Shown here piece after piece: positions 9,731 to 14,446 of a stretch of DNA of 64,000 bases (position 1 is the first letter of the stretch; the number at the start of each line of letters is the position of its first letter). The notes beneath the pieces are model-generated. The model was not told the DNA's origin and did no database searches. It saw nothing but the letters and a program-made list of their open reading frames with translations. Source of the DNA: Parvularcula sp. IMCC14364 (GTDB lineage: Bacteria > Pseudomonadota > Alphaproteobacteria > Caulobacterales > Parvularculaceae). A program made the translations under genes and the position numbers. The stretch spans positions 2,058,001 through 2,122,000 of the forward strand of contig NZ_CP132334.1 of the NCBI RefSeq assembly GCF_030758415.1, in the 5' to 3' direction.

Positions 9731-11077
9731 CTAGAAAAGAAACTCCGCCTCCTCCGGCACCCGCGAAAAAGCGATCTTTGCGCCGAGATAATTGAGATCA
9801 AGCCCCATCTGGGAAGCAAGGGTAACGTACCGCCCTGTGGATGGCCTCATCCGTGCCGCGCCGCCAAGTTTTGCCATTCTTTTTTCAAGATCAGCGTTCA
9901 TTTCATCCAGCGCCGTCCAGAGTTTCTCCCGGCTCTCCTGACGGCTGGTCGCGCTCTGTCCGGTGAACAGATCCCCTTGCATGACTTTCGCATCACCTGC
10001 CACCGCAAGGTCATGAAGGAAAACCGAGACGTTGCCGAAGCGACCGCCGCCATTGCCATCACGCAGCGTGTCGCGCTGTTGCTCCAGCCCCCGCCAGAGA
10101 TCATCGACCGCGTCCAGAAACCCGTAAGTATCCTGTGACAGGGCAAAGCGGCGTGTGCCCCCCCAGCGACCGCCGGGGCCATGGCGACCGGCCCGCATCC
10201 GGATATTCACGGTCAGGGCGCCGGCAAATCGGTCGTAATGACGCAGACGGCTCGCTGCCTTCATCAACAGGGCGGTCACGACAATTCTGGCACCGGCGGC
10301 TGTTTCATGTTCACCGCCCAGAACGCGGCTGTGTCCGATCATCGATTTCTGCGGCGCGTCATCCTCATAAACTTCATGGCCATGCAAAGAGTACCAGAAG
10401 CGCTCGCCCTGAACTGATCCCCAGATCCGGCGCGCCTGCTTGGGTTGAAGATTCCACACGCCCATGAAGTCAGTAACGCCCGCCCTCTCAAGACGCTTCA
10501 GGATGCCGGGCCCGATACCCGGTATCTTGCTGAGGCGAATATCTTCCAGCGTGTGCGGCAAATCACTGCTCTCCAGCGCTGTCAGACCATCCGGCTTGTG
10601 GCTTTCGGCCGCCAGCTTTGCCAGCAGACGTGAGGGCGCGAGGCCAATGGAGGACCGCATGGAAGGGCCAATATTTTCAAGGATTCCCTGCTGCACCTGT
10701 CGCCCGATTGCCAGGGCCGGACCGCGCGCGGTCTCCGACGGGGCCAGACGGCAGGCCCATTCATCAATCGAATAAACCTTCGTGATTGGCAGGTGCCGCT
10801 CGACTTCCTCTTTGAGTTTTTTATGGACCTGTACATAGCGGTCATGGCGCGCATGGCGGATGATGATCCCGGGACACAGCTGGCGCGCCTCCCTGACGGA
10901 CGTGCCGCGATTGATGCCAAACTTGCGCGCTTCGTAACTCGCGGCAATCGCCGACGTGTGCTCGGATTTTAACGGCACCACAATGAGAGGCCGGCCTTGC
11001 GCTGCCCGGTCATCATTCTGCTCAACAGCCGCAAAATAGGCATTAAAATCGATAAAAAGATATTTCAGGTCGGACAT
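9731..11077 (-). CDS. Y-family DNA polymerase (DinB/Pol IV-like)
   Basis: 448 aa translesion DNA polymerase. Catalytic carboxylates are visible in FIDFNAYFAAVEQ near the N-terminus and in VYSIDEWACRL around residue 110. The palm is followed by a helix-hairpin-helix thumb (LSKIPGIGPGILKRLERAGV) and a little-finger domain. The SIDEW segment and overall layout match a subgroup often mislabelled 'type VI secretion protein ImpB' in alphaproteobacteria. ATG 11089 is four codons further upstream; I prefer ATG 11077 because the promoter and LexA-type box at 11098-11129 would leave only a ~5 nt leader for 11089, but ~17 nt with GGTGAG for 11077. Probably SOS-induced. No imuA/dnaE2 partner is in the window. 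Confidence 0.88.
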   Translation of the reverse strand: MSDLKYLFIDFNAYFAAVEQNDDRAAQGRPLIVVPLKSEHTSAIAASYEARKFGINRGTSVREARQLCPGIIIRHARHDRYVQVHKKLKEEVERHLPITKVYSIDEWACRLAPSETARGPALAIGRQVQQGILENIGPSMRSSIGLAPSRLLAKLAAESHKPDGLTALESSDLPHTLEDIRLSKIPGIGPGILKRLERAGVTDFMGVWNLQPKQARRIWGSVQGERFWYSLHGHEVYEDDAPQKSMIGHSRVLGGEHETAAGARIVVTALLMKAASRLRHYDRFAGALTVNIRMRAGRHGPGGRWGGTRRFALSQDTYGFLDAVDDLWRGLEQQRDTLRDGNGGGRFGNVSVFLHDLAVAGDAKVMQGDLFTGQSATSRQESREKLWTALDEMNADLEKRMAKLGGAARMRPSTGRYVTLASQMGLDLNYLGAKIAFSRVPEEAEFLF

Positions 11078-11097
11078 GTTGCTCACCATCCAGAACG

Positions 11098-11129
11098 GAA
11101 CATATAGTGAACAAATGAGCCGGAGTCAA
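11098..11129 (-). promoter_or_regulatory. Sigma70-type promoter overlapped by a LexA (SOS) box
   Basis: Read on the minus strand there is TTGACT (11129-11124), a 17 nt spacer and TATATG (11106-11101), close to the -35/-10 consensus. Overlapping it is GTTC-N7-GTTC (11112-11098), the alphaproteobacterial LexA box, with an additional GTTC at 11096-11093. The site lies directly upstream of the Y-family polymerase. The overlap of the -10 and spacer with the box is what LexA repression would need. Confidence 0.75.
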
Positions 11130-11176
11130 GATGTTTTCAGCACCCGGCCAGCCCCACGGGTCTGGTGATGGCTGTC

Positions 11177-11848
11177 TTAAAGATCAAGAAACGGATTGAG
11201 CATACGGCCAAACCGGCCCGTCAGGCGCAGCGGCGCGTCCGTCACCGCAAGGCAGATGCACTCCCCCGTCCGGTCCACAGACGGGGCATGGTCCGTCGCC
11301 GGATCAGCCACGGAAAGGTCACCCACGCCGCAGGTGCCATTATGATCAGAGAACGACCCTTTAAGGATAAGTGTCAGTTCCAGTCCTTCATGGGTATGTT
11401 GCGGCAGAGTCATGCCGGCAGCAACGCGCAGCAGGCGGACTTTCGTTTTATCCGACCGGTCCGAGGCAACATATTCTGAATAGCCGGGCAGATTCGTCCA
11501 GTTCAGGTGATCCAGCTCACGCAGGGTTTTCGCCCCCAGATAGTCGCGCAACGGGTTTGGTAAAATGATGTCCTGATTTTTCAGATCACGTGGCAAAGAA
11601 GGTTTTGCATCGGACACGCCCTGAATATCTTCAAGCTGTGCCAGCACATTCTCCAGCACCTGACTGCCAACAGGTGTTTCCACAGCAGAAAACAGCATAG
11701 AGCCACCAATAGCTTCCAGTTCGCTCACATGGCCGCGGCATTGCGGACACATGGCAATATGTGTCGCAATCGCAAGGCTCACCCCTTCTGACAGGGTGCC
11801 AGCGGCGTAATCATTCAACAACTCTTCCGTAGGATGCACTTTGGGCAT
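11177..11848 (-). CDS. chrR: ChrR-family zinc-binding anti-sigma factor
   Basis: 223 aa anti-sigma factor. The N-terminal anti-sigma domain has the zinc motif H-x3-C-x2-C (HIAMCPQC, around residue 32-39) with an earlier His (HPTEELLNDYAAG). The C-terminal half is a cupin-like domain with a metal-type motif (LPQHTHEGLELTLILKGSFSDHNG). In Rhodobacter, ChrR holds sigma-E (ECF11) and releases it in response to singlet oxygen. The start is ATG 11848 with AAGGAG 8 nt upstream, leaving 2 nt after the rpoE stop; a TTG at 11854 would overlap rpoE. Last gene of the rpoH-rpoE-chrR operon. Confidence 0.92.
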   Translation of the reverse strand: MPKVHPTEELLNDYAAGTLSEGVSLAIATHIAMCPQCRGHVSELEAIGGSMLFSAVETPVGSQVLENVLAQLEDIQGVSDAKPSLPRDLKNQDIILPNPLRDYLGAKTLRELDHLNWTNLPGYSEYVASDRSDKTKVRLLRVAAGMTLPQHTHEGLELTLILKGSFSDHNGTCGVGDLSVADPATDHAPSVDRTGECICLAVTDAPLRLTGRFGRMLNPFLDL

Positions 11849-11850
11849 CT

Positions 11851-12477
11851 TCAATACTCCTTCAACACACTGCGCAGTTTTTTCAACGCCAATCGAATGC
11901 GGGATTTGACGGTCCCGCCGGGCGTGCCTGTCTGCACAGCAATTTCCTGATGGGATAAGCCCCCAAAATAAGACAATTTCAGCACGGTGAGCTGCTCCTC
12001 GGGGAGCGCCGACAGTGCCTCTTTCAACTCCTGCGTCTGGCGCCCAAGGTCGACCTGCCTGTCGGGGTCGGCGGGGGCCTGCGGTTGCAAGGCCGGATCA
12101 TGCTCATCAAGCTGATGGCGTTTTTCCTTGCGGAAAAGATCAATGCGGACATTTCTGGCGATTGTGTAGATCCAGGTCGATACTGCCGCCTTGGCCGGAT
12201 CATATTGTGCGCGCCGCGTCCATACCCTGGTCATGACTTCCTGGGTCAGATCATCGGCAACATGGTCCTGGGTGGTGCCCTGCAGGATGAAAGATTTCAC
12301 CCGCGGCGCCATAAGCTCAAACAGTTCCACAAAAGCAGACCTGTCAGCATCATCCCGCACGGACAGCATGAGACTCTCAAGATACTGAGCAGATAATGTG
12401 TTACGCGACCCGGCTGCCATTATGTCACCATGGCCGAAGCGTCGCGAAATCTCAATGCTTCCATACAGGGAACCCAT
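11851..12477 (-). CDS. rpoE: ECF sigma factor, RpoE/ECF11 type
   Basis: 208 aa extracytoplasmic-function sigma factor. Region 2 (about residues 40-105: DHVADDLTQEVMTRVWTRRAQYDPAKAAVSTWIYTIARN, ending in RIDLFRKEKR) and region 4 (about 145-200: LPEEQLTVLKLSYFGGLSHQEIAVQTGTPGGTVKSRIRLALKKL) are both complete. The linked ChrR-type anti-sigma gene identifies the ECF11 group, whose members answer photo-oxidative stress. ATG 12477 is chosen over the adjacent GTG at 12480 because AAGGA sits 7 nt before it. It lies 25 bp downstream of rpoH on the same strand and is followed almost immediately by chrR, so the three are likely one transcript. A shorter start at ATG 12420 is possible. Confidence 0.92.
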   Translation of the reverse strand: MGSLYGSIEISRRFGHGDIMAAGSRNTLSAQYLESLMLSVRDDADRSAFVELFELMAPRVKSFILQGTTQDHVADDLTQEVMTRVWTRRAQYDPAKAAVSTWIYTIARNVRIDLFRKEKRHQLDEHDPALQPQAPADPDRQVDLGRQTQELKEALSALPEEQLTVLKLSYFGGLSHQEIAVQTGTPGGTVKSRIRLALKKLRSVLKEY

Positions 12478-12502
12478 CACATTATCCTTACACGCATGTC
12501 AT

Positions 12503-13345
12503 TTAATGAGCGTAAAGCTCTTCGTCTGACGCAAAGCCTTCCTGCAGTTTTGCAAGAGCTGCTTTTTCGATCTGGCGAATGCGCTCCTTGGAGAGATTCA
12601 GTTTCTCGCCAATGCCAGCCAGTGTCATACGCGTCTCATCAAAGAAACGATGCTGGATAACCGCCTGCTCCCGGTCGGACAATTTTTTCATCTCAGAGCC
12701 GATGCGGTTCTGCAATTTCTCTTCATCCATCAAGCGCATGACAGCCACATCCGGCGTTTCGCGCTCGTCTTCCAGCATGTCCTGCTTTTCGGTGGTGGAG
12801 TCATCTTTCAGGATAACATTCAGTGAAGAGTCGCGCGCTGAAAGCCGGGACGTGGCAACATCCAGATCCTCAACCGTGACCTTGAATTTGTGCGCCACAT
12901 CCGTTTTGGTCATCTCGCCACGATCCGCCTGCTCGATCATTTTGCGGATACGGCCCAGATTGAAGAAAATGCTCTTATGCGCATTGGTCGTGCCCACCCG
13001 CACCATGGACCAGTTACGCAGCACATAATCCTGGATGGAGGCCTTGATCCACCAGCCTGCATAAGTCGAAAACCGGAATCCCTTGGCCGGGTCAAACCGT
13101 TTGGCCGCTTCAAGAAGGCCGATGACACCCTCCTGAATGAGATCATCGATCGGCAAACCGTAATTTTTGAATTTCATGGCGGCGGCAACGGCCATGCGTT
13201 GGTGGGCGAGGATCAATTTGTCCAATGCACGCTTGTCGCCCTTTTCCAGCCAGCGTTCGGCGCAGGCCTGTTCTTCCTCGACTGTCAGAATTTTGTGTTC
13301 AAATGCCGTTCTGGCACTTTCACGATTAAAGCTGTTGTAATCCAT
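12503..13345 (-). CDS. rpoH: RNA polymerase sigma-32 family factor (RpoH2-like)
   Basis: 280 aa sigma70-family factor of the RpoH group. Region 2 (QRMAVAAAMKFKNYGLPIDDLIQEGVIGLLEAAKRFDPAKGFRFSTYAGWWIKASIQDYVLRNWSMV, about residues 45-115) and region 4 (ending in LAGIGEKLNLSKERIRQIEKAALAKL) are complete. The segment RNWSMVRVGTTNAHKSIFFNLGRIR resembles RpoH2-type rather than RpoH1-type sequences as I remember them. ATG 13345 has an excellent ribosome site (AGAAGGAG); the frame stays open to a GTG at 13396 that overlaps the promoter, so the longer form is rejected. First gene of an operon with rpoE and chrR. In Rhodobacter RpoHII is a downstream target of sigma-E; here it is in the same unit. 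Confidence 0.9.
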   Translation of the reverse strand: MDYNSFNRESARTAFEHKILTVEEEQACAERWLEKGDKRALDKLILAHQRMAVAAAMKFKNYGLPIDDLIQEGVIGLLEAAKRFDPAKGFRFSTYAGWWIKASIQDYVLRNWSMVRVGTTNAHKSIFFNLGRIRKMIEQADRGEMTKTDVAHKFKVTVEDLDVATSRLSARDSSLNVILKDDSTTEKQDMLEDERETPDVAVMRLMDEEKLQNRIGSEMKKLSDREQAVIQHRFFDETRMTLAGIGEKLNLSKERIRQIEKAALAKLQEGFASDEELYAH

Positions 13346-13365
13346 CCCGTCACTCCTTCTATTGA

Positions 13366-13395
13366 GTGATACGCCTAGCACCCGCTCTTGGATCA
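13366..13395 (-). promoter_or_regulatory. Candidate ECF11 (RpoE) promoter for rpoH-rpoE-chrR
   Basis: On the minus strand TGATCC (13395-13390) is followed by an 18 nt spacer and TATCAC (13371-13366). TGATCC with a TA-containing -10 about 18 nt downstream is the described sigma-E (ECF11) recognition pattern in Rhodobacter. Transcription would start roughly at 13359, giving a leader of about 15 nt that contains AGAAGGAG. This implies positive autoregulation of the operon. No equivalent site was seen for the divergent flavoprotein gene. Confidence 0.65.
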
Positions 13396-13492
13396 CCGCG
13401 GGGACTACTTTTTTTTATAAAAAAATCCGGTCCGGCGAGAAAATGCCGATAGCCGCGCTATGTCATGACTTCGCCCAATAGAAGGATTTTCG

Positions 13493-14446
13493 ATGAAACG
13501 TGGCCAGACAGCCATAATCGGGGCCGGTGTTGCTGGCCTTGCCTGTGCGCGACGCCTGCAGGACGCGGGCTGGCCGGTGACCGTTTTCGAAAAAAGTCGC
13601 GGACTTGGGGGCAGGCTGGCGACCCGCCGCACACCGCAGGGACTGACTTTTGACCATGGCGCTCCTTTTATCAGGGTGACAGAGAAAGCCCCTGACCTTG
13701 AGCGCCAACTGACCGGCACAGGCGATGCCGTCATCTGGCCGACGGCAACAGAGCATCAATATGTCGGCGTACCGTCGATGAACGCATGGCTGAAACCCAT
13801 GGCCGAGGGTATCCCGCTGCGATTGCATACCCGGGTGATCGGGATTGCTGCAACGCATGACCAGTGGCAGCTGACCCTCGAAGCTGACAACGCTGCGGCC
13901 ACAAGCGAAACCTTCGACACCATTATCTGTACGGTTCCGGCACCACAGGCACAGGAACTGACCGGTCATCTGGCGGGATTTTCCGGTGTTTTTGACCGGA
14001 TCAGGATGACCCCCTGCTGGACGCTGATGGTGGCCTTTGAAGAACGCCTGAACCTGCCATTCGATTTTCAGGAACACCCGGATACCGGCATTGCAAAGCT
14101 GATCCGCAATACTGCCAAGCCCGGACGCCCGCAGGATCATGATTGCTGGGTAGTACAGGCTGATGCTGCATGGAGTACGGACAATCTGGAGCTTGAAAAG
14201 GAAGAGGCCGCCGCGCGCCTGTTGGCGAAGTTTGCGGACGTGGCTGGTATCCCGCTCCCGGCTGTGACGTACCAGACGGCGCATCGCTGGCGCTACGCAC
14301 TCACCGCGTCAGCATATGGCGTCCCGTTTCTGCCACACCCTGATGGCTCTCTTTATCTGGGCGGTGACTGGTTGTTGGAAGACACAGTCTCGGATGGCTG
14401 GCGCAGTGGCAACGCCATCGCTGATGCCCTTCTGCAGACAGACTAG
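13493..14446 (+). CDS. FAD-dependent amine-oxidase/renalase-like oxidoreductase
   Basis: 317 aa flavoprotein. The N-terminus has a dinucleotide-binding fold (AIIGAGVAGLACARRLQDAGWPVTVFEKSRGLGGRLATRR, residues ~7-46) including the GG-R-A-T-R extension typical of renalase-like and amine-oxidase-like proteins, and the C-terminus has the FAD-closing segment (LYLGGDWLLEDTVSDGWRSGNAIADAL). It is divergent from rpoH, 147 bp away, and similar flavoproteins occur in ECF11-ChrR regulons, so a role in oxidative-stress handling is plausible but inferred. ATG 13493 follows AGAAGGA. Its stop shares the palindrome CTAG (14443-14446) with the stop of the convergent esterase gene. Substrate unknown. Confidence 0.85.
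   Translation: MKRGQTAIIGAGVAGLACARRLQDAGWPVTVFEKSRGLGGRLATRRTPQGLTFDHGAPFIRVTEKAPDLERQLTGTGDAVIWPTATEHQYVGVPSMNAWLKPMAEGIPLRLHTRVIGIAATHDQWQLTLEADNAAATSETFDTIICTVPAPQAQELTGHLAGFSGVFDRIRMTPCWTLMVAFEERLNLPFDFQEHPDTGIAKLIRNTAKPGRPQDHDCWVVQADAAWSTDNLELEKEEAAARLLAKFADVAGIPLPAVTYQTAHRWRYALTASAYGVPFLPHPDGSLYLGGDWLLEDTVSDGWRSGNAIADALLQTD

Follow-up and report, generated by a model that had tools for sequence, protein, structure and literature searches.

The window, by which we mean the whole 64,000-nt stretch of Parvularcula sp. IMCC14364 DNA that was analysed, carries on its minus strand the genes rpoH (13345–12503), rpoE (12477–11851) and chrR (11848–11177), in that order, with 25 nt between the rpoH stop and the rpoE ATG at 12477 and 2 nt between the rpoE stop and the chrR ATG; a first-pass annotation of this DNA had given the same order and spacings, and the sequence confirms them. 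An in-frame GTG is also present at 12480, and the ATG at 12477 is aligned across the three species that carry the triad. RpoE is an ECF11-type sigma factor: among solved structures it is closest to R. sphaeroides sigmaE (2q1z_A, 134.8 bits; next 68.3), it is directly adjoined by chrR, and a TGATCC-N16-CGTA motif lies on its own operon, before rpoH and not directly before rpoE. ChrR is an anti-sigma factor in which Pfam identifies a zf-HC2 and a ChrR cupin domain. It passes TIGR02451 (211.7 bits; cut-off 124.5) and aligns along its full length with R. sphaeroides ChrR (2z2s), retaining the H...HxxxCxxC zinc site of the anti-sigma domain and the cupin HxHxxxE...H. RpoH is a sigma-32 family factor of 280 amino acids with sigma-70 regions 2 and 4 (Pfam), and its best solved relative is an RpoH (8hkc).

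A consensus scan of positions 10900–13600, which is blind to many promoter types, found no terminator-like or sigma70-like site on the minus strand inside the unit. Because of this, of the spacing of the genes and of an rpoE–chrR junction that is near identical in the three species, we infer that rpoH, rpoE and chrR are co-transcribed. Comparison of two carriers (G000 and G001) indicated constraint at the protein level, with pN values of 0.047, 0.101 and 0.085 for rpoH, rpoE and chrR against pS values of 0.77, 0.65 and 0.71 respectively.

Upstream of rpoH is a predicted RpoE(ECF11)-type promoter, TGATCC-N16-CGTA (13395–13370, minus strand), with its −35 element TGATCC at 13395–13390 and its −10 element GCGTA at 13374–13370, followed by a Shine-Dalgarno-like AGGAG (13357–13353). 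The region upstream of rpoH has diverged among the carriers G000, G001 and G004 and three blocks within it are kept: GTGATCC, GCGTA and a ribosome-binding region, AGAAGGAGTGACG, that includes the AGGAG. The 15-nt spacer between the first two blocks is unrelated among the three, while TGATCC-N16-CGTA itself is kept in all of them, with the CGTA ending 24–25 nt before the rpoH ATG. It matches published ECF11 promoters exactly, as given in the accessible text of the respective papers as TGATCC(N15)GCGTA for R. sphaeroides RpoE (PMC5036791) and TGATCC-N16-CGTA for the P. syringae homologue (PMC5507510); the promoter of Shewanella RpoE2 is given, in text accessible to the same extent, as TGATCC/CGTATT (PMC4336711). 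The element first proposed, TGATCC-N18-TATCAC, is literally present, but its −10 assignment did not hold: since it is GTGATCC and GCGTA, not TATCAC, that the three species conserve, and the published promoters point to CGTA, TATCAC was rejected in favour of the better −10 two bases upstream, which gives TGATCC-N15-GCGTA. The 3,417,277-bp genome has eight copies of the exact 10-base motif, both strands counted, and by our arithmetic the chance of one falling in a given 150-nt stretch on the correct strand is about 2 in 10,000. On this sequence evidence the promoter assignment is strong.

An extended form of the motif, GTGATCY-N16-CGTAY, has only two sites genome-wide, one before the rpoH operon and the other before a gene for a fasciclin protein. 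The latter (G000:C1:2844565-2845159; L372, L411; L373, L371) lies 91 nt before the fasciclin ATG, and all three carriers have it at the corresponding position; the match is exact in two of them and has one mismatch in G004. Judged by scores and sequence starts, the three carriers have this type of fasciclin gene, and none of the matches from the genus's other three genomes is of this type. A fasciclin gene of R. sphaeroides, RSP_1409, is placed in the RpoE regulon in the available part of PMC7074977, and an Azospirillum fasciclin is cited as under RpoE-ChrR in that of PMC10949492. Thus the earlier claim that one RpoE-type promoter serves rpoH-rpoE-chrR is supported by the exact ECF11 match, its retention in three of three carriers, the lack of the motif directly before rpoE in these carriers (L006, L173 and L174) and of terminator-like or sigma70-like sites within the unit, and this second conserved site. 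Candidate targets were kept only where the site was conserved between carriers. Exact motif counts per genome are similar in carriers (8, 7 and 7) and non-carriers (8, 7 and 3), so that most single hits are chance occurrences and the counts are uninformative about regulon size. Photolyase genes were rejected as RpoE targets in the carriers, since the regions upstream of them hold no site with at most one mismatch; phrA is listed as an RpoE target in R. sphaeroides (PMC7074977, accessible portion).

Elsewhere among the alphaproteobacteria, TGATC-N17-CGTA was found upstream of 161 of the 216 rpoE ORFs whose upstream region was long enough (among the matches listed), against 0.03 expected per stretch from the overall frequency of the motif. 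TGATCC-N16-CGTA also stands before many alphaproteobacterial rpoH2 genes (L063-L092, L303-L312), mismatched forms often reading TGAACC. In the rpoH count, which left out L003, L332 and L137, the motif was exact before 19 of 44 RpoH2-type loci, a set that leans to typical RpoH2 as it comprises top NF005693 scores, some genes near ChrR and 14 named genomes; a further 12 had one mismatch, for which the background is only the 36 RpoH1 and 10 related genes. It was found before none of the 36 RpoH1 genes, and before none of ten relatives of the triad rpoH from genomes in which no ChrR of the triad kind was found. Some genes were counted under two locus ids (e.g. L089/L172, L044/L172, L005/L173, L007/L174), and totals such as 216, 44 and the 215 given below are therefore loci and not all distinct genomes. 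The presence of the motif before rpoE and rpoH2 elsewhere suggests that RpoE and RpoH2 are widely linked in trans, a link that looks old; the window would make the same link in cis.

The genome, a single 3.4-Mb contig, encodes a separate family-type RpoH1 at 666981 in addition to the RpoH of the triad. The best family of the latter is NF005693 (PRK07500, sigma-32), at 298.1 bits and so below the cut-off of 315 bits, and it passes NF005143 (256 bits; cut-off 241). Trees were built from 70 of 96 rows at first and then, for a more careful tree, from 46 of the 96 after removal of long and redundant rows. In the careful tree the 15-row RpoH1 clade excludes the triad RpoH (100/100), which groups on a long branch with relatives from the same family (100/99), five of the ten such genes being in the 46-row tree; its sister group comprises the rpoH of G002 and G005, both of the window's genus, and of genus g3. 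In AU tests, joining the triad RpoH alone to RpoH1 was rejected (p 3e-5), joining it with its relatives to RpoH1 instead of RpoH2 cost 3 log units and was not rejected (p 0.30), and neither was monophyly of RpoH2 without the triad RpoH. The name RpoH2-like, applied in the first-pass annotation, hence fits the profile score and the wiring, i.e. the RpoE-type promoter, but the tie to RpoH2 is unproven by the tree and the subclass is uncertain; what the tree does support is a divergent lineage outside RpoH1.

The triad was found in three of the six genomes of the genus (G000, G001 and G004), and no ChrR and no close RpoE were found in the other three. We surveyed the neighbours of ECF11-ChrR pairs, as the annotation had suggested, at 215 loci (26 from relatives, including the three carriers, 111 from a class sample and 78 of at least 80 named loci); 22 of 237 chrR loci showed no adjacent rpoE and fall outside this number, and the first-look loci (L004-L062) had flanks of only about 1.5 kb. 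Among the matches listed, rpoH adjoins rpoE-chrR at four of the 215 loci, namely those of the three carriers and one in G242 (L137); at three further loci rpoH lies 6.5–7.6 kb from rpoE-chrR. The G242 locus (L407 7837-10267) resembles the triad in that rpoE-chrR stands beside an rpoH-like gene, but this gene comes last, 51 nt on as measured between ORF ends, its product is short, without the part that aligns with the RpoH box, and rpoE-chrR and the rpoH-like gene each have their own TGATCC-N16-CGTA. The single rpoH-rpoE-chrR unit is real and, in this survey, restricted to half of the genomes of one genus, and no description of rpoH within an rpoE-chrR operon was found in the accessible parts of the open-access literature.

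The relatives of the triad proteins share a chromosomal slot. G009, which belongs to genus g5 of the same family, has a PBP-like gene, OmpA, chrR and rpoE in that order, divergent from genes for an FAD protein and a DUF1365 protein ('PBP-like' being a reading of the sequence and not a search result). In G002 and G005 the same neighbours surround a related rpoH, which lies on the strand that rpoE-chrR occupies in G009, and three to six more genes are shared further out; comparison of L404 and L405 with L408 and L409 shows one syntenic block holding either rpoE-chrR (g5) or the related rpoH (G002, G005). An OmpA homologue adjoins the related rpoH on its 3′ side at 10 of 10 loci. The sister group of the triad's RpoE-ChrR is formed by the proteins of G009 and G017, both of genus g5 (support 96, in a quick tree and so weaker evidence), and with RpoH sister to same-family relatives, there is no support for a recent horizontal acquisition from beyond the family. 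A tentative reconstruction, which we hold somewhat less than evenly probable, is that an ancestral rpoH-rpoE-chrR operon lay between the OmpA-type gene and the divergent FAD-protein/DUF1365 pair and was split by differential loss: G009 and G017 would have kept rpoE-chrR; G002 and G005, and probably genus g3, would have kept only RpoH, dropping the ECF sigma factor and its sensor; and the carriers would have moved the intact triad. This would explain why the RpoE-ChrR of the triad is sister to that of g5 and its RpoH to that of G002, G005 and g3. If true, an RpoH in G002 and G005 has come to occupy the position of an ECF11-ChrR system, with the usual neighbours of that system still around it. 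Independent replacements at the slot could have given the same pattern instead. The original slot of the triad in its own genome was not found in the approximately 0.88 Mb examined of 3.4 Mb.

Taken together, the triad is a real, conserved and restricted variant of the known RpoE → RpoHII cascade. We put at roughly 0.8 the probability that it is a stress operon of the singlet-oxygen/peroxide type, with the second-tier sigma factor placed in the transcription unit of the first tier. At rest, ChrR would hold RpoE. Once ChrR is inactivated, by a signal that homology with the R. sphaeroides system suggests, RpoE-RNA polymerase would presumably recognize and start at TGATCC-N16-CGTA and transcribe rpoH, rpoE and chrR together, along with at least one distant gene, that for the fasciclin protein. 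RpoH, translated first, would open its own promoters as the second tier, at targets that are likewise presumed, while RpoE would amplify itself and ChrR from the same message would limit both. A two-step alarm thus appears merged into one step.

Three other accounts of the locus were weighed against this stress-operon reading. One ascribes most rpoE-chrR expression to an overlooked housekeeping promoter within rpoH, which would leave the RpoE promoter in charge of rpoH and read-through alone and make the feedback weak. It draws on the fact that an autoregulated sigma factor requires basal transcription from some source, and on the blindness of our consensus scan to many promoter types; it is made unlikely by the lack of a sigma70-like site on the minus strand in the scanned interval and by the absence, in all three carriers, of an RpoE motif directly upstream of rpoE. 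We think it distinctly improbable that the triad RpoH arose by duplication of RpoH1 and has a heat-shock role unrelated to the operon that it happens to occupy, instead of acting as an RpoHII-like second tier: the separate family-type RpoH1, the 15-row RpoH1 clade that excludes the triad RpoH, and the split of exact RpoE promoters between RpoH1 (0/36) and RpoH2 (19/44) all speak against it, although the AU test does not reject a joining of the whole triad lineage to RpoH1.

The adjacency could also be neutral or a matter of chance, if rpoH came to lie behind the RpoE promoter and ahead of rpoE in a single recent ancestor and this brought no benefit to regulation; among the matches listed the arrangement is indeed confined to one genus. 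However, it has been kept while synonymous sites became highly diverged, with constraint on the proteins and a conserved promoter, and related rpoH and rpoE-chrR genes share one slot in sister lineages; we give this account little credence.

The stress-operon reading can be set beside known systems. E. coli RpoE belongs to another ECF group than the RpoE of the triad, and it has a membrane anti-sigma factor, with rpoE and rpoH lying apart. As its counterpart here is predicted to do, it drives rpoH, from the P3 promoter (PMC8103513, accessible text). In R. sphaeroides, sigmaE-ChrR → RpoHII has the same three protein families, promoter form and order of control as the triad, and a fasciclin gene is a target there, as is predicted here; as the first-pass annotation had stated, rpoHII is there a direct RpoE target located elsewhere in the genome (PMC3441632, PMC7074977 and PMC6852236, as far as their available text goes). 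According to the same partial sources, rpoHII has an RpoE control of its own there, and the neighbours of rpoE-chrR are RSP_1087-1091, whereas in the window the rpoE-chrR unit begins with rpoH, whose product belongs to a distant lineage. R. capsulatus also has rpoE-chrR in an unusual neighbourhood and induces rpoHII, but the neighbours are bsaA1 and cryB, not rpoH (PMC7074977, in the part available). So far, the RpoE → RpoHII cascade has been studied where its genes lie at separate loci; in the triad, a single message would encode the two sigma factors together with the anti-sigma factor, and RpoH output would thereby be tied to ChrR output. The triad allows a direct test of what the separation of tiers buys, in terms of delay, amplification and independent shut-off, and the slot shared by sister lineages lets one ask how a sigma cascade assembles and is dismantled.

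On either side of the unit, two further genes were considered. The divergent FAD-dependent amine-oxidase-like gene (13493–14446) has only 61–64% identity among carriers, most neighbouring proteins having about 80–95%, and was rejected as a second target in the region as no RpoE motif faces it (two loci counted). Downstream of chrR, a gene for a DinB-like polymerase is preceded by GTTCACTATATGTTC (GTTC-N7-GTTC; window 11112–11098, minus strand), identical in three of three carriers, which is probably a LexA (SOS) box, taking GTTC-N7-GTTC to be the alphaproteobacterial form of that box; dinB was therefore rejected as a fourth gene of the operon and is regarded as its own transcription unit.
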